Part shown: positions 2,939 through 11,006 of the stretch, in pieces
Layout: the number at the start of each line of letters is the position of its first letter
Numbering within the stretch: the stretch's first letter is position 1
NCBI RefSeq assembly: GCF_011039275.1
Contig: NZ_JAAKGB010000001.1
Coordinates: 1,240,001-1,304,000, forward strand
Direction: 5' to 3'
Origin: Streptococcus hyointestinalis
Lineage (GTDB): Bacteria; Bacillota; Bacilli; Lactobacillales; Streptococcaceae
DNA: 64,000 nucleotides
Translations under genes and position numbers: made by a program
The notes under the pieces: model-generated
What the model was told of the DNA's origin: nothing
Database searches by the model: none
The model's input: only the letters and a program-made list of their open reading frames with translations

Positions 2939-2967
2939 ATTATACGCTCATTGGTTACAACTGTCAA
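2939..2967 (-). promoter_or_regulatory. Consensus promoter of the racemase operon
   Basis: TTGACA (2962-2967, minus strand), 17 bases, TATAAT (2939-2944): both hexamers are perfect. The -35 box overlaps the TGA stop of the upstream DUF262-HNH gene, so the accessory module and the operon abut without spacer DNA. Confidence 0.88.
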
Positions 2968-4724
2968 TGCAAGAACTGCCATCCCTTTTGGTGGGTATTG
3001 ATAAAATCACTCACCAACTCTTCTATCTCTACTGTCATCCTGTCAATCTGGTCTTTATCCCAACCATTGCTGTCTGTGATTTTTGCCATCCATTGGAGTT
3101 TCAGACTTTGGCGGTTGAAAATTTCTTCCCATTGATTGTACTTAGCCGCTGGAGTTAGATTACTGAATTTTGAGTTTTGACTGCCTGTTGTAATGGCGAG
3201 ATTGCCAAAAGCGTGAAGCGTCTCATCATCCAAGCGTTCTAGCTTGGACTCTTTGTCTGGATTCTGCGGATACCAGTGCTCAATGGAACGGCGATAGGTA
3301 AATCTAAAATTGTCTGCGTCAAAAAAACGTTCTTTAAGTTCCTCACGATTGTCCCAAAGCACGTAATCCACAAAGTTAAAGGCATAGATAGGCACTTCTT
3401 GGTAAGACCTGATTTTAGTGCAAGCGTCATCGCTAAAGATACGAGACTTCTTAGCATAGGCAATAGCCATACTCTCTAGCTTGTTCACAAAGAGCTGACC
3501 AAGCTCCTCTTGGTCGAGGACACAGTCATCATGTTGGTACAGGAACTGCATGACCTCGTACAACCAACGGCTGTCACGATTAGCCGTGAACGTCACTGCA
3601 AACATAGACTGCAGCATGATAATCTTTTTGTTGAGTGAATCTTCAAAAAGATTCACTATTGACCGTTTTTTATTACCAATCTTTATTTTCTTCCTCAAAA
3701 CCCAATGCGTCTCGCCACTAGACGATATGTCTCTGTCATTTTTGATAATATAAGTGTCAAAAAGCTGACGTAAACACAAGAGCTCAGCTAAAAAATCCAT
3801 CACCCAGCTGCTTGATTTATCCTTCAAATCAAAGACCTGAAGCAACTTCTTGTCATCTAGCTGAACACTAGAGGCATCATCACCTTTGACGATACCTATA
3901 CAGTAGAGCAGAAGTGTTTCAAAATTGATAATTGGGGTGTAGTTGCTGAATTCTGCCTTCTCCTCTCGACCAACCACATCTCTATTTTGGTCCTCTTTTA
4001 AGGCGTCCAAAATAGAGAGCTTACTGTCACTCTCAAAAGAACTCTGTGCCGGAGAAGCATTGTCATCGTTCTTACTCTTGATGATTGGAATTTCTAGCTC
4101 TGAGCAGGCATCCCATATCTCGGCAAAGTTTTGAGCATAGTCTTCTTCTAGCTTTGCCATCATTTGCGCCTTGATAATCTCGTGAGCTTCCAGCTGCTCG
4201 CCTCGTGAGTTAAAGCGTTCAAAATAAAGATTGAGGTCTAGGTGCTCTGGCAAGATAGACTGAAAGATAGACACCTGATGAAGCAGATACTGTGTAAACT
4301 GCTCAATGTTTTCAACTTTTTTCAAGCCTTCCTTGGCATCGTGATAGCCTCGCTTAATCTCATCATCTTCCTCTGGAATCTCGCCCTTGTAGAGTTTTTG
4401 AAGCGTCTCGTTTGAGCCCTTTCTAGCAGGAAAGCTAATTGGGATGTGACTGAGAATGGCTTTCTCATAATCATTTTGCAAAGCCAAGGCAATAAGAGTC
4501 AGTGCTGTGCTTCTTTGCTGACCGTCGATGATATTATTTTTCGTATCCACCACCAAGGTACCGATATAATAGCGGTCTTTAGTGTCCTTACAAGAGTCCT
4601 CGATGTCTTGGATGAGTTGCTCGATTTCCTTATAAGTCCAAGCAAAATTTCTCTGATAAGGCGGAATATGATAGTTGCCTGCAAATAAATCACAGATGCG
4701 CAAGGTTTGATGGTCTTTTGTCAT
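2964..4724 (-). CDS. DUF262 + DUF1524 (GmrSD-type) protein with HNH nuclease motif
   Basis: A 586-residue protein. The N-terminal DUF262 (ParB/sulfiredoxin-like NTPase) domain shows IPPYQRNFAW (about 19-28) and IIDGQQRSTAL (about 65-75). The C-terminal DUF1524 domain carries the His-Me/HNH finger: IEHWYPQN with His483, then GNLAITTGSQN (Asn508, Asn517) and FSN (Asn522). In GmrSD type IV restriction enzymes, DUF262 uses NTP and DUF1524 cuts modified DNA, so this is a likely nuclease subunit. Its ATG overlaps the stop of the upstream DUF262-only gene (ATGA), implying translational coupling and probably a complex of the two products. Function against phage is inference. Confidence 0.85.
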   Translation of the reverse strand: MTKDHQTLRICDLFAGNYHIPPYQRNFAWTYKEIEQLIQDIEDSCKDTKDRYYIGTLVVDTKNNIIDGQQRSTALTLIALALQNDYEKAILSHIPISFPARKGSNETLQKLYKGEIPEEDDEIKRGYHDAKEGLKKVENIEQFTQYLLHQVSIFQSILPEHLDLNLYFERFNSRGEQLEAHEIIKAQMMAKLEEDYAQNFAEIWDACSELEIPIIKSKNDDNASPAQSSFESDSKLSILDALKEDQNRDVVGREEKAEFSNYTPIINFETLLLYCIGIVKGDDASSVQLDDKKLLQVFDLKDKSSSWVMDFLAELLCLRQLFDTYIIKNDRDISSSGETHWVLRKKIKIGNKKRSIVNLFEDSLNKKIIMLQSMFAVTFTANRDSRWLYEVMQFLYQHDDCVLDQEELGQLFVNKLESMAIAYAKKSRIFSDDACTKIRSYQEVPIYAFNFVDYVLWDNREELKERFFDADNFRFTYRRSIEHWYPQNPDKESKLERLDDETLHAFGNLAITTGSQNSKFSNLTPAAKYNQWEEIFNRQSLKLQWMAKITDSNGWDKDQIDRMTVEIEELVSDFINTHQKGWQFLH

Positions 4725-6088
4725 GTGTTAATCTCCTTTATTAAATCTTTTAAAGTGATATTTTCAAAATAATCTCTGTTGATTTTCTGTAAGAAATCAC
4801 TAGGTGTCAGCGAGTGATTGAGCACTTGAAAGAGTTTTTGAACTTCTTTTTTCTGAAATGTCCCACCTGCTGCATAGTTGGCTAGGGTTGAATCCATGAT
4901 ACGCTTGGCTTTTCTAGGATAGTAAGCCCAGGTCGCAAGCACTTCTAGGACTTCCTTATCTAGTGCTTCCTCACCGAAGCGGTCAATAAACAGCGCCAAA
5001 ATATTGTAAAAAAGATTTTTAGGACGCTCGTATTTACTAGCCTTTTGTTTTAAAAGTTCAGCGACTTCACTGTCTCTAACCAAGTCAAGCAGACGCCTTG
5101 ACACTGTTTCATCGTCACCTTCTTGCGACTTTGATGCGAGAAGTGTATCAGTCTTAATCAACTTGGCAAACTGCTCGTGCGCATGTTGGACATAGTCAAA
5201 GAAATAGTTGCCATTGATGATAGGCATGACCAAGGACTGAGGGAAGTCTCTGCCTGCTTCCTCCAGCAAGCAATAAAGTCTCAGATAAGGATAGGCTTGA
5301 TTGTTCCTATTCAAGTCAACACCCTTGAAATCATCAATAAAGGCGTTTGTGAAAGACAGGTAATTGCGACGTCCGCTTTTTGTCAAACCAGTTTCACCAC
5401 TTGTCCAACGACGCAAGCGAAACAAATGCCTATCAAACAAGTCTTTCAGCGGTAAGTTCTCATCTGTCACCAACTTTTCCCAGTTTTCAACGGCTTTCTC
5501 AACTGCCTTCTCAGACGATTTGTCGATACTCCTCAAGTGATACGCTTTGAGCAGGTCGTGAGGCTCAAGTGACTTGCCACGATTGTTTTGCGAATCAAAG
5601 AGCTGGAAAGCTTCTCCCAAACGCTTCTCTGGCAAGCTAATCACAGACAATGAGCACTTAGAAAGCAGAAAATCACAGATCTCGTCCGCTTTTTGTCTGC
5701 CATTTGTCTCGATGAGCTGCTGCCACTCTTGAGTGTTTTCCTTAGCGTACTGACGACTGAGCGCGCCGTAAGGTCTCGCTAAAAGATTGGTCGCTCCTCT
5801 ATAGTCCTCTAAACGCCCCAAAGCATGCAAGAAAAGCGAGATAGATATGAGACGTTGCTGTCCATCAACAATATCTAAATTTCCCTCATGCCGATGTAAA
5901 ATCAAAGACCCCAGCTGATAATCGTTCTTCTCACCCTCCACAATCTCCTTAATGTCGTAAAAGAGATTTCGGATATGGTGGCGTTGCCATTTGTAGGGAC
6001 GCTGATAAGGCGGGATAGTAAGCCTTTCGTCCTGTAAAATCTCGGCAACCGTCCTAGCAGAAAAAGTCACATCTTCTTTTGATTCCAT
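4721..6088 (-). CDS. DUF262-only protein, partner of the DUF262-HNH protein
   Basis: A 455-residue protein with the DUF262 signatures LTIPPYQRPYKW near the N-terminus and LDIVDGQQRLISI about 45 residues later. The conserved GxSLEPHDLLKAYHLR stretch sits in the helical middle part. Unlike its neighbour it lacks the IEHxxPQ/Asn HNH motif, so it looks like a GmrS-type NTPase or sensor without a nuclease domain. It is the first gene of the pair and ends in an ATGA overlap with the nuclease-bearing gene. The ribosome binding site AAGGAGAA precedes the ATG. A 17-bp inverted repeat (6141-6157) lies in its promoter region. Confidence 0.8.
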   Translation of the reverse strand: MESKEDVTFSARTVAEILQDERLTIPPYQRPYKWQRHHIRNLFYDIKEIVEGEKNDYQLGSLILHRHEGNLDIVDGQQRLISISLFLHALGRLEDYRGATNLLARPYGALSRQYAKENTQEWQQLIETNGRQKADEICDFLLSKCSLSVISLPEKRLGEAFQLFDSQNNRGKSLEPHDLLKAYHLRSIDKSSEKAVEKAVENWEKLVTDENLPLKDLFDRHLFRLRRWTSGETGLTKSGRRNYLSFTNAFIDDFKGVDLNRNNQAYPYLRLYCLLEEAGRDFPQSLVMPIINGNYFFDYVQHAHEQFAKLIKTDTLLASKSQEGDDETVSRRLLDLVRDSEVAELLKQKASKYERPKNLFYNILALFIDRFGEEALDKEVLEVLATWAYYPRKAKRIMDSTLANYAAGGTFQKKEVQKLFQVLNHSLTPSDFLQKINRDYFENITLKDLIKEINT

Positions 6089-6140
6089 GCTATTCTCCTT
6101 TTTATTTTCCTTATGTCTACGTTTATGATAACAGATAGGT

Positions 6141-6157
6141 TGGACGTTATGTGTCCA
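6141..6157. promoter_or_regulatory. 17-bp inverted-repeat operator before the DUF262 pair
   Basis: TGGAC-N7-GTCCA is a perfect 5-bp inverted repeat about 55 bases upstream of the DUF262-only gene. On the minus strand the repeat contains TGGACA, a plausible -35, with TGTTAT 18 bases later. The same design (GGAC-N7-GTCC, 12 of 17 bases identical) recurs at 9111-9127 before the AAA+ gene. Binding by the WYL protein is inferred from position only. Confidence 0.6.
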
Positions 6158-6163
6158 GCTTAG

Positions 6164-7114
6164 CTATTCTTCATAGCTTTTTGCCATTTTTTGCAAAATC
6201 TCCCTTATCTCACTCACAAGACTTTGTGGAGACAAAATAGTAAGTCCATCTGCTTGGCTGAGTAGCCAACGTTTCAGCCCAGGTGTGTCTTGGCTGACAA
6301 ACTCGATAATGTTTGCTTCCTCAGTCTGTTCCAAAACTTTTGCGGTGGGAAATTGATCTAAAACGATGGTGGGGTCGTAGCGAAAACGAACCTTGACTGT
6401 TACTTCCTTTCCCATAAAGGAATCCACTCGAAAATTGCGAATGTCCCCATCACGAAATTTCCTCCCATAAGAAAGGCTAGGCTTTTTCGCTTCAGAGAGT
6501 GACCAGTCCTCTATCCTATCTAGGCGCAAGGTCATGTAGGACTCATGCCTCAAGTGATAGACCACAGTGTAAAAGTAGTGACTGTCGTAAAAGAGCGACA
6601 CCGGAAGAATAGTATGCGCTTTCTTTTCTTGATAGGGCGTTTTGTAGGTAATCTCTAGCACTTGCTCCTTTCGGATAGCTTCTGACCAGTCCCAAATCTT
6701 GTCAATCCGATTTTGCCTGTCCGACAGCGGTGCATAGTTCAGTAGCTCACTTGCGATAATGCTTGAGATTTCCTTACGCTCTTCCTTAGAAAGCAAGGCT
6801 AAAAGGCTATCAATAAGCCCCTTATTTTCTGCCTCATTTAGAGCACGATTTTCTAGTAAAATCTTTGCAATAACCAAAATATCCTTTTTGTTAAAGAGTG
6901 ACTTGCCCTTAAGATACCGTGTGTGGTGCTTGCTATCATAAGCCAGCTCCGCTGCAATCGTCGGCTGCTCCTCTAGAAAGCTAGAGAGGAGTGCAAAATC
7001 TCGTTGAATCATTTTTTCACTAATCTCAAACTCATCTGCCAACTGACGCTTGGACAAATGAGCGCCCGCCTGCAAGCGTAAAAAAATCCTTAATAATCGT
7101 TCTTGACCGTTCAT
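6164..7114 (-). CDS. WYL-domain transcriptional regulator with N-terminal HTH
   Basis: A 316-residue protein. Residues 1-60 form a winged helix-turn-helix of the DeoR/HTH_11 kind (LSKRQLADEFEISEKMIQRD). The middle (about 145-230) is a WYL domain (LEITYKTPYQEKKAHTILPVSLFYDSHYFYTVVY), followed by a C-terminal WCX-like extension. WYL proteins such as BrxR and CapW are ligand-sensing regulators of anti-phage systems. It lies between the AAA+ gene and the DUF262 pair, all on one strand, with its own promoter at 7137-7166. It is the natural candidate to bind the shared inverted repeats at 6141 and 9111. No copy of the repeat was seen at its own promoter. Confidence 0.87.
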   Translation of the reverse strand: MNGQERLLRIFLRLQAGAHLSKRQLADEFEISEKMIQRDFALLSSFLEEQPTIAAELAYDSKHHTRYLKGKSLFNKKDILVIAKILLENRALNEAENKGLIDSLLALLSKEERKEISSIIASELLNYAPLSDRQNRIDKIWDWSEAIRKEQVLEITYKTPYQEKKAHTILPVSLFYDSHYFYTVVYHLRHESYMTLRLDRIEDWSLSEAKKPSLSYGRKFRDGDIRNFRVDSFMGKEVTVKVRFRYDPTIVLDQFPTAKVLEQTEEANIIEFVSQDTPGLKRWLLSQADGLTILSPQSLVSEIREILQKMAKSYEE

Positions 7115-7136
7115 AGTATACCTCGATTTCAGTTTT

Positions 7137-7166
7137 ATTATATCATCCTAAACAAGGACTCTTCAA
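7137..7166 (-). promoter_or_regulatory. Promoter of the WYL regulator gene
   Basis: TTGAAG (7161-7166), 18 bases, TATAAT (7137-7142) on the minus strand. The start codon is about 25 bases further, preceded by GAGG. No GGAC-N7-GTCC repeat occurs here, so this promoter may not be autoregulated by the same site. Confidence 0.6.
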
Positions 7167-7200
7167 TGGTGAGTTAGCCAAAGGACTACATTTATATACT

Positions 7201-9063
7201 CTACCTGCCAAAACCAATGACTCTCGTGGACTTTTTCTTAGAGTCTATCTCTTTTATAGCATGGACAATATCAGATTTTCTAATCTCTCTTAACTCTTTC
7301 TTGCTTAACCGGCTAATATCTCCTGCCATGAGCCTCTTTGCCTGCTGGTAAAGAGTTAGCTCTAACAATTTTCGGACATAGCGACCATTGCCAAAGTCTA
7401 TCTGATGAACTATCGTTGAAAAATGGGCTGATAAAATGTCCTTGCAAGCAGGTGTACAGATGTAGTCTCTCTTTGTGACCATTAACAAAAAGATGTCACA
7501 CAGTTCACAAATAGAATAGTCTTTAAAAGCAATCTCTCGTGAAATCCGAGACTGCAAACCGGGATTAGCTTTTACAAAGTCCCTCATCAAGTCAGGATAA
7601 CCAGCAAATATCACTAGCACCTCATCTCGTCTGTTTTCCATTTCTTGGATAAGAGCAGGAATCGCCTCAACAGCAAAATCACGCTCATTTTGTGGCGTCA
7701 AACTATAAGCTTCATCAATGAAAAGAACACCACCGCTTGCAGCGTCAAATGCCTTTCTTATCTTTGGTGCGGTCTGTCCGACATATTCTCCTATCAAGTC
7801 AGCTCGCCCAACCTCTACCAACTTATTGTCTTTGATAAGCTGGTGTTCAAACAAAATCTCTGTATACAGTCGTGCCACTTCTGTCTTTCCTGTACCGGGA
7901 TTTCCCGAAAAAACAAGATGATTATTGCTATCATCACTAGCCAAATCATTCTCTTTCCTTAGAGCTATGATACGTGCATAAGCTAACTGCTGCGCTAGCA
8001 AGTCCTTGACAGAGTGTAATCCTACCATTTCTGTCAACTTTTTATAAGCTTCTTTAGATGTCGATATTTTTGGCTTATCCTCTTGAAAGTCGCAAAGATT
8101 GATAAAGTTCTGTTCATCATATTCATAGTCAATAGCTACTACAAAGTGATAGAGCTCTTGCACTAGCTGACGAACTTCTTTGGCATTTTGGACCTTGAAA
8201 CGATTTTCTAAAAGTTCCTTCAGGTCTCTTGGTCGGATATGAATAGCTCTCTCTTGTAACATGCTATCTGCTATTTTGTACAGTTCCTCTTTGCTATATC
8301 TTGGGAAATCAACAATAGTTATCTGATAAAAATTGCTACTCAGTTCTTGCTTTAATTGATGTGCTTCCTCGCTAGAATGTGCGACAACAATACCAAACCT
8401 TGTACTCTCTTTTGATTTCAAAGCCTCCGCAAATGCGATTTTATCCTTTGTATCGATACTTGAAGTGTCATAAATAACAGGAAATTCCTTATCCCCTATC
8501 TCAGGAAAGCCATAGCGTCTAAAGTTTAAAATCATGGCAGATAAACCAAATAGGCGCTCTAAAAATGAAATCGCAAATTTTCTTCCAGAACCTTCCTTAC
8601 CATTGAAAATCCAAATGATAGGCTCTTTTGCTAGTGTTTCTGAAACGCTTGAAGCTTTCTCTTGCCGAGCTATATCCGCTAGTAAATACCTCACCTCACT
8701 TTTAAACGGTGTTAGCGAGATAATCTGATCCAATTCAGCTACTACGTCATCCTTTGGAGTCATCTGAGCAGACTTTCCTAACGTCTTCTGACTTAGTAAA
8801 AAATAACCAAAAATCCCCAGCTTATCCTTTCCGACCTCTTTTACAAATATTTCTTCAGAAACAGAGGCATAATGTTCTAGCTTAAAATCAAAACTGTTTA
8901 GCTTTTCTGTGATGTCCTCTTGACTACACTCATTAGAGGATACCAAGTACATGTCCTCCTCACTAGTCTGAAAATAAAGGAAATCTTGCTCAAAAACAGC
9001 ACCCTCATCTACTGTTTTCCTTTTTTCGCCAGTTATATCTAGCTTGATATGATAATAGTTCAT
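7201..9063 (-). CDS. CbbX/SpoVK-like AAA+ ATPase with tandem AAA modules
   Basis: 620 residues from ATG 9063, chosen because GAGGTG lies 6 bases upstream; a GTG three codons earlier is the alternative. The C-terminal AAA+ module has Walker A GNPGTGKT (about 387-394), pore loop GEYVGQTAPK, Walker B LFIDEAYSL (about 447-455) and a GLQSRISREIAF arginine-finger region, all of the CbbX/SpoVK/EccA clade. An earlier module has a decayed Walker A, NGKEGSGRK (about 154-162), so the protein is probably a two-ring remodelling ATPase with one active half. The first ~110 residues match nothing I recognise. It precedes the WYL gene, and its promoter region shares an inverted repeat with the DUF262 pair. 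Substrate unknown; disassembly of a DUF262 complex is speculation. Confidence 0.83.
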   Translation of the reverse strand: MNYYHIKLDITGEKRKTVDEGAVFEQDFLYFQTSEEDMYLVSSNECSQEDITEKLNSFDFKLEHYASVSEEIFVKEVGKDKLGIFGYFLLSQKTLGKSAQMTPKDDVVAELDQIISLTPFKSEVRYLLADIARQEKASSVSETLAKEPIIWIFNGKEGSGRKFAISFLERLFGLSAMILNFRRYGFPEIGDKEFPVIYDTSSIDTKDKIAFAEALKSKESTRFGIVVAHSSEEAHQLKQELSSNFYQITIVDFPRYSKEELYKIADSMLQERAIHIRPRDLKELLENRFKVQNAKEVRQLVQELYHFVVAIDYEYDEQNFINLCDFQEDKPKISTSKEAYKKLTEMVGLHSVKDLLAQQLAYARIIALRKENDLASDDSNNHLVFSGNPGTGKTEVARLYTEILFEHQLIKDNKLVEVGRADLIGEYVGQTAPKIRKAFDAASGGVLFIDEAYSLTPQNERDFAVEAIPALIQEMENRRDEVLVIFAGYPDLMRDFVKANPGLQSRISREIAFKDYSICELCDIFLLMVTKRDYICTPACKDILSAHFSTIVHQIDFGNGRYVRKLLELTLYQQAKRLMAGDISRLSKKELREIRKSDIVHAIKEIDSKKKSTRVIGFGR

Positions 9064-9110
9064 TTGTGTCACCTCTCTTGTTTTCTACAAGATTAGTCTA
9101 TAACATCTAG

Positions 9111-9127
9111 CGGACGTATACTGTCCA
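9111..9127. promoter_or_regulatory. 17-bp inverted-repeat operator before the AAA+ gene
   Basis: CGGAC-N7-GTCCA, about 50 bases upstream of the AAA+ start. Same architecture and mostly the same bases as 6141-6157: plus-strand GGACGT at the left and TGTCCA at the right are shared. On the minus strand it includes TGGACA, a one-mismatch -35 box, with TGTTAT 16 bases downstream. A regulator bound here would cover the promoter. Confidence 0.6.
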
Positions 9128-9182: not shown

Positions 9183-11006
9183 TTATTCTTCATCCATAGA
9201 AAGCACGCTGAGGAAGGCTTCTTGTGGGACTTCGACAGAGCCGATAGCTTTCATGCGTTTTTTACCTGCTTTTTGCTTTTCGAGGAGCTTACGTTTACGA
9301 GAGACGTCACCACCATAACACTTGGCAAGGACGTTCTTACGCAAGGCTTTGATGTCTGTACGTGCCACGATTTTTTGACCGATGGCAGCTTGGATAGGCA
9401 CTTCAAACTGCTGACGAGGGATGATTTTCTTGAGTTTCTCAACGATGAGTTTCCCACGCTCATAGGCAAATTCCTTGTGCACGATAAAGCTGAGGGCGTC
9501 CACCTTGTCGCCATTGAGGAGAATATCCATCTTGACCAGCTGTGACTTGCGATACTCTGAAATCTCGTAGTCAAAGCTAGCGTAGCCACGAGTAGAGCTT
9601 TTAAGCTTGTCAAAGAAGTCAAAAACAATCTCAGCCAAAGGAATTTGGTAGATGACATTGACACGATTGTCGTCAATATAATCCATGGTCACAAAGTCGC
9701 CACGCTTACGCTGACAAAGCTCCATGACCGCTCCGACAAACTCCTGTGGGACCATGATTTGCGCCTTGACATAAGGCTCTTCGATGTAGTCGACACGTGT
9801 CGGGTCTGGAAATTCGCTCGGGTTAGACACTTCAAGCATTTCACCGTCTGTTGTCGTCACGTGGTAAACTACGGACGGCGCTGTCATGATGAGGTCAATG
9901 TTAAACTCACGCTCCAAGCGCTCTTGGATAACGTCCATGTGAAGGAGTCCCAAGAAACCACAGCGAAAACCAAAGCCCAAAGCCTGCGACGTCTCTGGCT
10001 CAAACTGAAGACTAGCGTCGTTGAGTTGCAACTTCTCAAGTGCTTCACGTAGGTCGTTGTATTTGTTGGACTCGATTGGGTAAAGCCCTGCAAAGACCAT
10101 TGGGTTCATCTGCTTGTAGCCGTGCAGTGGCTCTGCTGCTGGATTATTTGCCAGAGTCACGGTATCTCCGACACGAGTGTCCGCCACTGTCTTGATAGAA
10201 GCTGCAATGTAGCCAACGTCCCCTGTCGCAAGGAAATCACGTCCAACAGCCTTTGGTGTGAAAATACCGACCTCAGTCACGTCAAAAGTCTTGCCATTAC
10301 TCATGAGCTGAATGGTGTCCCCAGGTTTGACCATTCCGTTGACAATGCGCACCTGCAGGATAACCCCACGATAAGCGTCATAAACCGAATCAAAGATAAG
10401 GGCTTGAAGCGGTGCTTCCAAGTCACCAGCAGGTGCTGGGACTTTCTCAACGATTTGCTCCAAAATCTCCTCAATCCCAATACCAGCCTTGGCTGAAGCC
10501 AATACTGCCTCTGAAGCGTCCAGCCCAATCACATCCTCAATCTCGGTGCGCACACGCTCTGGGTCAGCTGCAGGCAGGTCGATTTTATTGATGACCGGCA
10601 GAATTTCAAGGTCATTGTCTAGTGCCAGATAGACGTTAGCTAAGGTCTGCGCTTCGATTCCTTGCGCTGCGTCAACGACCAAAATCGCACCTTCGCAGGC
10701 AGCCAGCGAACGAGATACCTCATAGGTAAAGTCCACGTGTCCTGGCGTGTCAATCAAGTGGAAAATATAGGTCTCGCCATCTTTTGATGTGTAGTTAAGC
10801 TCGATGGCGTTTAGCTTGATGGTAATCCCTCGCTCACGCTCCAAGTCCATGCTGTCAAGGAGCTGCGCCTGCATTTCACGGCTAGAAACGGTCTCTGTCG
10901 CCTCCAAGATACGGTCAGCCAGCGTCGACTTCCCGTGATCAATATGGGCAATAATCGAAAAATTGCGGATTTTTTCCTGTCGTTGTTTCAGTTCTTCAAT
11001 ATTCAT
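9183..11006 (-). CDS. lepA: Elongation factor 4 (LepA), ribosome back-translocating GTPase
   Basis: 607 residues, full family length. G1 AHIDHGKST (about 19-27), G3 DTPGHVDF, G4 NKIDLP and G5 ASAKAG are all present. The C-terminus has the LepA-specific lysine-rich tail ([19 protein letters not shown]). EF4 binds the ribosome and promotes back-translocation or remodelling of stalled complexes. It is transcribed alone from an extended -10 promoter at 11041-11049 and ends at the terminator 9150-9176. Nothing odd was seen. Confidence 0.97.

Follow-up and report, generated by a model that had tools for sequence, protein, structure and literature searches.

The stretch of DNA analysed in this work, referred to throughout as the window, comprises 64,000 nucleotides of Streptococcus hyointestinalis (NCBI RefSeq assembly GCF_011039275.1, contig NZ_JAAKGB010000001.1, positions 1,240,001 to 1,304,000 of the forward strand). 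Within it, a block of four genes encoding a tandem AAA+ ATPase, a WYL transcription regulator and two DUF262 proteins, all on the minus strand, lies between genes which we take from their sequences to be lepA (9183-11006) and an aspartate-racemase-like gene (2209-2907). The genes and candidate control elements of the block, with protein lengths in amino acids (aa), are as follows:

9111..9127, minus strand: op1, upstream of the AAA gene; operator-like palindrome TGGACA-N5-CGTCCG, which departs from the family consensus at 2 positions
9095..9100, minus strand: -10-like hexamer TAGACT at a family-wide fixed distance from op1, putative promoter element
7201..9063, minus strand: tandem AAA+ ATPase, 620 aa (Pfam, CbbX profile, alignment of relatives, structure model)
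7137..7166, minus strand: promoter-like site of the WYL gene, TTGAAG-18-TATAAT, with TG before the second hexamer (consensus match only)
6164..7114, minus strand: WYL-WCX transcription regulator, BrxR-like, 316 aa (Pfam)
6141..6157, minus strand: op2, operator-like palindrome TGGACA-N5-CGTCCA between the WYL gene and the DUF262 pair, 1 mismatch
6125..6130, minus strand: -10-like hexamer TATCAT, spaced from op2 as TAGACT is from op1, putative promoter element
4721..6088, minus strand: TgvA-like DUF262 protein, 455 aa (GmrSD_N and DUF7834; PYQR, DGQQR, FDSQN; without the HNH half)
2964..4724, minus strand: TgvB-like DUF262-HNH protein, 586 aa (GmrSD_N and GmrSD_C; PYQR, DGQQR, FERFN)

An earlier reading of this DNA from its letters alone (the sequence-only reading) had proposed a compact defence module of four co-directional genes, and the minus-strand open reading frames (ORFs) together with their Pfam matches confirmed the gene set. 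The compactness holds for the gene order; the block is nevertheless probably more than one operon, because a promoter-like site precedes the WYL gene and operator-like palindromes precede both the AAA gene and the first DUF262 gene. Promoter-like sites of the WYL-gene type numbered 15 in the region and 12.1 in shuffles.

The two DUF262 genes overlap by 4 bases in the same direction, and their products scored 109 and 101 bits against Pfam GmrSD_N. As had been proposed, the DUF1524/GmrSD_C nuclease half was matched in the second protein (2964-4724) alone, where H483 in EHWYP, N508 in GNL and N522 are the likely His-Me residues. PYQR, DGQQR and FxxxN, following the motif definitions given in PMC11411939, are kept in both proteins. 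By its predicted architecture the pair is an already known kind of type IV system, since the two-protein GmrSD-like systems TgvAB and GrwAB have been published (PMC11411939, PMC12409362); TgvAB is described there as a type IV system of the GmrSD family in which both proteins are required and by which phages with modified cytosine are restricted. TgvAB of Vibrio cholerae VPI-2 likewise consists of two adjacent DUF262 proteins, the second alone with a DUF1524/HNH half, and, by layout and published motif definitions, shares the QR, DGQQR, FxxxN and His-Me motifs. It differs in sitting within a type I restriction-modification operon, and the words WYL and AAA are absent from the main text of PMC11411939. 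On the same island, a WYL gene (VC1772) is reported upstream of ddmDE (PMC12409362). The intact motifs make it highly probable that the pair of the window acts as a type IV restriction effector, and the defence reading of the block is likely, given this GmrSD-family pair and an alternative effector at related loci that matches a PADLOC defence candidate (see below). Plasmid records with a match numbered 918, with 30-34% identity among the 20 relatives listed, and a scan of IMG/VR with the DUF262 protein gave no viral relative.

Pfam AAA and AAA_lid_6 were matched in the ORF at 7201-9072. The gene most likely starts at ATG 9063 (MNYY) and not at GTG 9072, because a methionine is invariant at that position in 21/21 aligned relatives (the alignments used here, of 21 AAA, 9 c14 nuclease and 12 DnaA-like sequences, were picked by length and completeness). 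The protein comprises a small N-terminal alpha/beta domain and two AAA domains. The first of these is degenerate (Walker A GSGRK or GTGKK); the second is CbbX/SpoVK-like and has both Walker motifs, A and B, as well as an EYVGQTAPK segment, which by analogy we take to be the pore loop; an IGFG motif near the C-terminus is conserved. The structure model, at a predicted template modelling score of 0.46, was used for domain-level statements only. The second AAA domain matched a CbbX profile with an E-value of 7e-79, at 39-40% identity in the fold alignment, in agreement with the proposal that the ATPase is CbbX/SpoVK-like and not McrB-like. An McrBC-like reading was rejected on this match and on the absence from the block of any other gene that could be McrC.

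The protein fell below the NCBIfam equivalog cut-offs for SpoVK, CbbX and EccA and so is none of the three by name. A GY in sensor 1 (G488-Y489), a feature described for the CbbX/SpoVK/EccA clade (PMC10659427), is invariant in 21/21 AAA sequences. An asparagine four residues before the first arginine finger, given in the same source as a mark of the clade, was not found as the motif is read here: N500 is invariant, but the residue after NPGL is Q, S or A in 21/21 (NPGFR in CbbX), and the next arginine, R506, is invariant. Because the first of the two arginines that follow NPG in CbbX is missing in 21/21, the ATPase is, by its sequence, CbbX-like and not a member of the clade. It shares with the clade the CbbX match of the second domain, the GY of sensor 1 and the NPG ahead of a conserved arginine, and differs in being a tandem protein, in which a small N-terminal domain and a degenerate first AAA domain precede the CbbX-like one. 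CbbX, SpoVK and EccA are reported to serve as dedicated chaperones for narrow sets of targets (PMC10659427), and a search of open-access papers brought up no defence role for their clade.

Pfam WYL and WCX were matched above cut-off in the regulator, and HTH_11 at 23.0 bits, below its cut-off of 25. Its reading as BrxR-like was supported by comparison with the BrxR/CapW regulators, which it resembles in the layout of helix-turn-helix, WYL and WCX domains, in a pair of inverted-repeat boxes (5-base spacer) lying around that gene, and in linkage to varied defence systems, including, on the BrxR side, the GmrSD-type BrxU. BrxR of E. fergusonii is described as repressing its island through two such boxes (PMC9122601). 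The regulator of the window differs in its weak sequence similarity to BrxR, in the ATPase gene beside it and in having no box directly before its own promoter, no operator-like palindrome being found at the promoter-like site at 7137-7166.

Recurrence of the block was examined in 127 genomes of the genus, among which the AAA protein was searched for independently of WYL (many of these genomes also contributed to the set of WYL loci described below). A close homologue of the first DUF262 protein (E <1e-140) was found in 19 genomes; 24 carry a match to the second (E up to 1e-10) and 10 a full-length or nearly full-length AAA protein. AAA, WYL and the pair lie in one block in 4 of the 127 (G000, G016, with one small gene between, G046 and G048). 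The AAA gene of genome G014 is split, the piece for the last 103 residues lying near the WYL gene and the rest ~27 kb away, and a DDE-transposase-type ORF pair near both pieces suggests that an insertion element caused the split. Co-occurrence of the AAA gene with the DUF262 pair elsewhere, on which the sequence-only reading had staked its proposal, was thus found as one block in three further genomes and in split form in a fourth, and the neighbourhood is not a product of chance, as the same set recurs. The WYL gene is adjacent to or one gene from AAA in 9/10 AAA genomes, the tenth being the split gene of G014, and in 15/19 pair genomes no more than 2 kb separates it from the pair, on the same strand; it is ~4 kb off in the other orientation in G111 and on another contig end in G020. 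Only 4/19 close DUF262 pairs have an AAA gene in the same block. A search of 295 genomes of the order yielded the full-length AAA protein in five, every one of them a member of this genus.

A second set was centred on the regulator. An alignment of WYL relatives was scanned against an 84,980-species collection, which gave 47 loci (43 from Streptococcus, two from Floricoccus, one from Gemella and one from a contig of a metagenome-assembled genome), or 48 with the window. As these were gathered via the WYL family by two peptide patterns, all counts from them are conditional on WYL and incomplete. An AAA gene is present in 20/48. The DUF262 pair accompanies it in ten (the window, L092, L094, L096, L097, L099, L100, L108, L110 and L129); nine carry instead a nuclease-like protein of ~300 aa, family c14 (L093, L095, L101, L102 as a 53-aa remnant, L103-L106 and L113); and the locus of Streptococcus entericus carries the nucleotide-modification-associated proteins Nmad2 and Nmad3 in the place of the effector (L107:10680-12176). 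Sixteen loci lack AAA and combine a short DnaA-like protein with the DUF262 pair. Neither ATPase was recognised in the remaining 12, some of which have the pair alone, while L109 retains a 45-aa AAA remnant, L098 ends at a contig edge, and L133, L135 and L137 carry a ClpB-like protein (see below).

One c14 representative, from L074, gave no Pfam match but matched the PADLOC candidate PDC-S02 over its length (E 1.4e-52). In a c14 model of middling quality (predicted local distance difference test score 65), the first half resembled YTH/EVE-like domains and VcaM4I (Z ~6) and the second half MspJI (Z 8.1, root-mean-square deviation 3.6, 127 residues) and FokI (Z 6.5); matches at Z ~5 to 8 may be due to chance, and they include unrelated folds, RPB5 (Z 6.8) for instance. 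All 9 aligned sequences keep ECE and QVK, and c14 is predicted to be an EVE/YTH-PD-(D/E)XK-like nuclease. EVE-PD-(D/E)XK proteins are themselves predicted modification-dependent enzymes (PMC7641849), so that modified DNA would be, by prediction, the common theme of most effectors. The likeness to PDC-S02 and to EVE-PD-(D/E)XK lies in c14, a replacement at other loci and not part of the four-gene block of the window.

An exchange of effectors is visible within one species. The locus of S. suis YS161 (L093) matches L094 and L096 over ~4.2-4.7 kb at 95-96% DNA identity, from a 176-aa membrane-like ORF through AAA, c24 (a 187-aa family) and WYL into a small ORF, yet it has c14 as effector. Two remnants are found downstream of it, one repeating 359 bases of the AAA 5' end together with its operator (98%) and the other 357 bases of the HNH 3' end (96-98%), a pattern that would fit a c14 version placed on top of an earlier DUF262 version.

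Both kinds of label were then compared on a WYL tree. In the 35 rows labelled for both, the ATPase label required 2 changes (7-16 in 300 shuffles) and the effector label 5 (6-9 in shuffles); as the effector has three states and the ATPase two in this comparison, the contrast serves as a guide and not as a test. The tree was made by a quick method from 45/48 rows (L112, L113 and L134, with broken or short WYL frames, were left out), and 16/42 of its inner branches are open. Labels were assigned by hand from the locus map, with two states for the ATPase (35 rows) and four for the effector (44 rows). Where AAA and a DnaA-like gene occur together (e.g. L099, L100, L104, L107, L108) the locus was labelled AAA, the L102 remnant was counted as EVE-type, L132 (two divergent GmrSD_N proteins) was counted as a pair, and the ClpB-like label of L135 and L137, guessed at labelling, was later confirmed. 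Since the ATPase label tracks the WYL tree and the effector was swapped in L093, the ATPase goes with the regulator and not with the nuclease.

The locus is therefore better described as a WYL-ATPase backbone with an exchangeable effector than as a four-gene system. No named four-gene system was found in PADLOC-DB of 2023, a release that predates later systems, in which HEC-06/Orf5/SspE matched the DUF262 parts, a generic WYL the regulator and IetA, weakly, the ATPase. To this extent the set is unnamed, as the sequence-only reading supposed; its DUF262 pair, as set out above, is of a published kind. Neither the WYL-AAA-DUF262 set nor the DnaA-core association was found described in titles or abstracts of the papers listed by searches of open-access PubMed Central (PMC), a scope that takes in few preprints and no subscription papers.

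The sequence-only reading further suggested that the ATPase performs a remodelling step on the nuclease complex. That a CbbX-type remodeller acts directly on this complex, loading, separating or resetting the nuclease, would suit the narrow targets of CbbX, SpoVK and EccA, the operator-like sites at both AAA and the pair in the window, and the conservation of IGFG and the EYVGQTAPK segment. It is made unlikely by the other effectors in 10/20 AAA loci, by the lack of AAA at most DUF262 pairs and by the WYL tree, which the ATPase label follows better than the effector label. The evidence thus argues against an ATPase that serves only the DUF262 complex and, because AAA stays constant while effectors change, slightly favours one acting on something else.

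Operator-like palindromes were first noticed when upstream regions were placed side by side, as they precede each of 10 AAA genes and most DnaA-like genes. The consensus TGGACA-N5-TGTCCA was then scored over the 48 loci (840,923 bases) and in one Markov control pass, which gave 25, 32 and 41 sites with 0, 1 and 2 mismatches in the loci and 0, 3 and 27 in the control. In 19/20 AAA loci the start of the AAA gene has a site with no more than 2 mismatches. Under strict placement rules, op1 (before the first gene) was found in 32 loci, op2 (just after WYL) in 22 and both in 12, the window included, so that 42/48 loci have at least one. These rules miss op1 of L100 and L104, where the start codon is set too far upstream, and of L113, where WYL is broken; the consensus scan finds sites there. 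The six loci without a strict site (L098, L111, L112, L113, L134 and L137) have a 1-mismatch site (2 mismatches in L134) elsewhere in the locus. In 45 distinct sites a -10-like hexamer begins 10 bases past the palindrome, its first, second and last letters being invariant T, A and T. In the window, op1 and op2 are the only two occurrences of GGACN7GTCC in 64 kb, where 0.40 are expected and 8/100 shuffles reach two. One further palindrome candidate from the genome-wide search (G000:C1:1111203) lies, judged by eye, apparently within coding sequence.

With this conserved placement, WYL very probably controls both promoters through the op1 and op2 sites, and repression, as by BrxR, is the more probable mode, a palindrome over the -35 region at 10 bases from a -10-like hexamer fitting a repressor better than an activator. 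The operator data also bear on the possibility that a WYL-AAA unit and a TgvAB-like pair are two independent accessory systems placed side by side by chance. In keeping with this, five loci in the 127 genomes have WYL-AAA but no pair next to it (G126, G002, G025, G122 and contig 17 of G003), G003 carries its pair on another contig than its WYL-AAA, and most pairs lack AAA, two plasmid pairs inspected among the 918 records having no annotated WYL or AAA neighbours (annotation there is incomplete). Similar palindromes ahead of each unit, in the window and at 11 other loci of the 48, the same-strand proximity of WYL to the pair in 15/19 genomes, and the replacement effectors, which are also predicted modified-DNA enzymes, render it improbable.

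In addition to AAA, cores of replication proteins stand beside WYL genes of this family. Stand-alone DnaA-type cores (~150-205 aa) were observed in streptococci in L059, L067, L069, L116-L128, L130, L138 and others, and a DnaA-like subfamily without Walker A, c15, in L064, L068 and L070-L072. Against the AAA+ domain of DnaA the DnaA-like proteins gave a match at E 1e-35; judged by length, they would end before the lid and the DNA-binding domain; one is 49-50% identical over ~160 residues to longer proteins, presumed host DnaA. The c24 family is tentatively related to DnaA (profile probability 72%). A DnaB C-terminal domain alone (273 aa) adjoins the WYL gene at L077:10025-10846 and L136:8088-8909. 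In oral streptococci the WYL-DUF262 module recurs between polC and an M29-peptidase gene (pepS), often with a RelB-YafQ toxin-antitoxin pair (L058, L059, L063, L064, L066-L072, L109, L110, L117-L128, L130 and L138); there, S. sanguinis L110 has AAA where mitis-group loci place a DnaA core before WYL. AAA and a DnaA core co-occur in other loci and so are not strict alternatives. A separate conserved ORF of ~40 residues (M.EWIVVDQFGN...) lies between WYL and the effector, whatever the effector, in 21/48 loci (L092:10036-10155 and 20 others), and was not found in the window.

The best overall explanation, to which we assign a probability of roughly 0.68, is that the block is a WYL-controlled, modification-dependent (type IV) restriction locus with a co-controlled ATPase. 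The WYL protein would be expressed from its own promoter and, by analogy with BrxR, would bind op1 and op2, covering the -35 regions of the ATPase and restriction-operon promoters and keeping both low. Upon infection a ligand, probably a nucleic acid fragment, would release it. As their intact motifs and published relatives suggest, the DUF262 proteins would jointly form a TgvAB-like nucleotide-dependent enzyme that recognises modified phage DNA, which the HNH (His-Me) domain of the second protein would then cut. The AAA+ protein would be a remodelling ATPase under the same control, and its client would be something that all versions of the locus have in common (the WYL protein, for example, or a shared nucleoprotein) and not the DUF262 complex itself.

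Several observations weigh against this explanation. L108 is the sole AAA locus without an op1-like site, both window sites are weaker than the family consensus, and no more than ~10 bases, without op2, lie between WYL and the DUF262 pair in most of the polC loci found in oral streptococci. TGGACN7GTCC occurs at background across the window's genome (14 matches on both strands, 12 for the reversed pattern), so that the operator case rests on conserved position, and a genome-wide regulon was rejected on the same count. The WYL protein gave one weak match to the BrxR structures, 7qfz (E 0.002), the 295-aa BrxR structure named in PMC9122601. Many loci that have this WYL family and the pair lack AAA, so that the pair does not need it generally, and in G030 and G101 the pair is present with no match to the WYL protein. 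Finally, L133, L135 and L137 have a ClpB-like protein, and not a nuclease, after a WYL gene of the same family. The ClpB-like ATPases of these three loci share 63-67% mutual identity and have a 176-179-aa neighbour.

These last loci, the WYL-WCX architecture and the DnaA- and DnaB-like domains of some loci would also suit a WYL protein that acts as a PafBC/DriD-like activator of a DNA-damage or stress response, restriction being secondary. This is quite improbable, most effectors being of restriction type and the palindrome over the -35 region, at its fixed distance from the hexamer, appearing better suited to a repressor. It is speculative, and improbable at present, that WYL and the ATPase form a general, effector-independent cassette for interchangeable modified-DNA enzymes, its ATPase slot being filled by a CbbX-like remodeller or a truncated DnaA core (sometimes with a DnaB core), so that the cassette would read the state of the replication machinery, or mimic it, to time nuclease release.

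The G+C content of the AAA gene is 37-41%, of the remainder of the block 41-44% and of lepA 45-50%; G+C lowered relative to neighbours is common for accessory DNA. Insertion at lepA was not demonstrable in the flank of up to 1.5 kb that was compared: 12 other genomes of the genus align over lepA, some also upstream, and none beyond ~35 bases downstream. Flanking repeats of the block were searched, and none was convincing as an attachment site. At L079 (G041:C1:350000-366000) a WYL gene of the same family lies near lepA without the rest of the block, adjoining an acetyltransferase-like ORF that resembles the one at 1030-1497 of the window.

The control of type IV restriction enzymes is poorly known, and the new part of these observations is a WYL-operator-ATPase backbone with exchangeable effectors. 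Predicted modified-DNA nucleases of at least two unrelated kinds occur with one regulator family and its operator-like site, and an effector swap that arose in nature within one species leaves regulator and ATPase almost unchanged, which raises the testable question of what the WYL protein and the ATPase sense or do that serves any such nuclease. If the ATPase takes part, this would give a CbbX/SpoVK-like protein a role in phage defence and would provide a setting for orphan DnaA cores.

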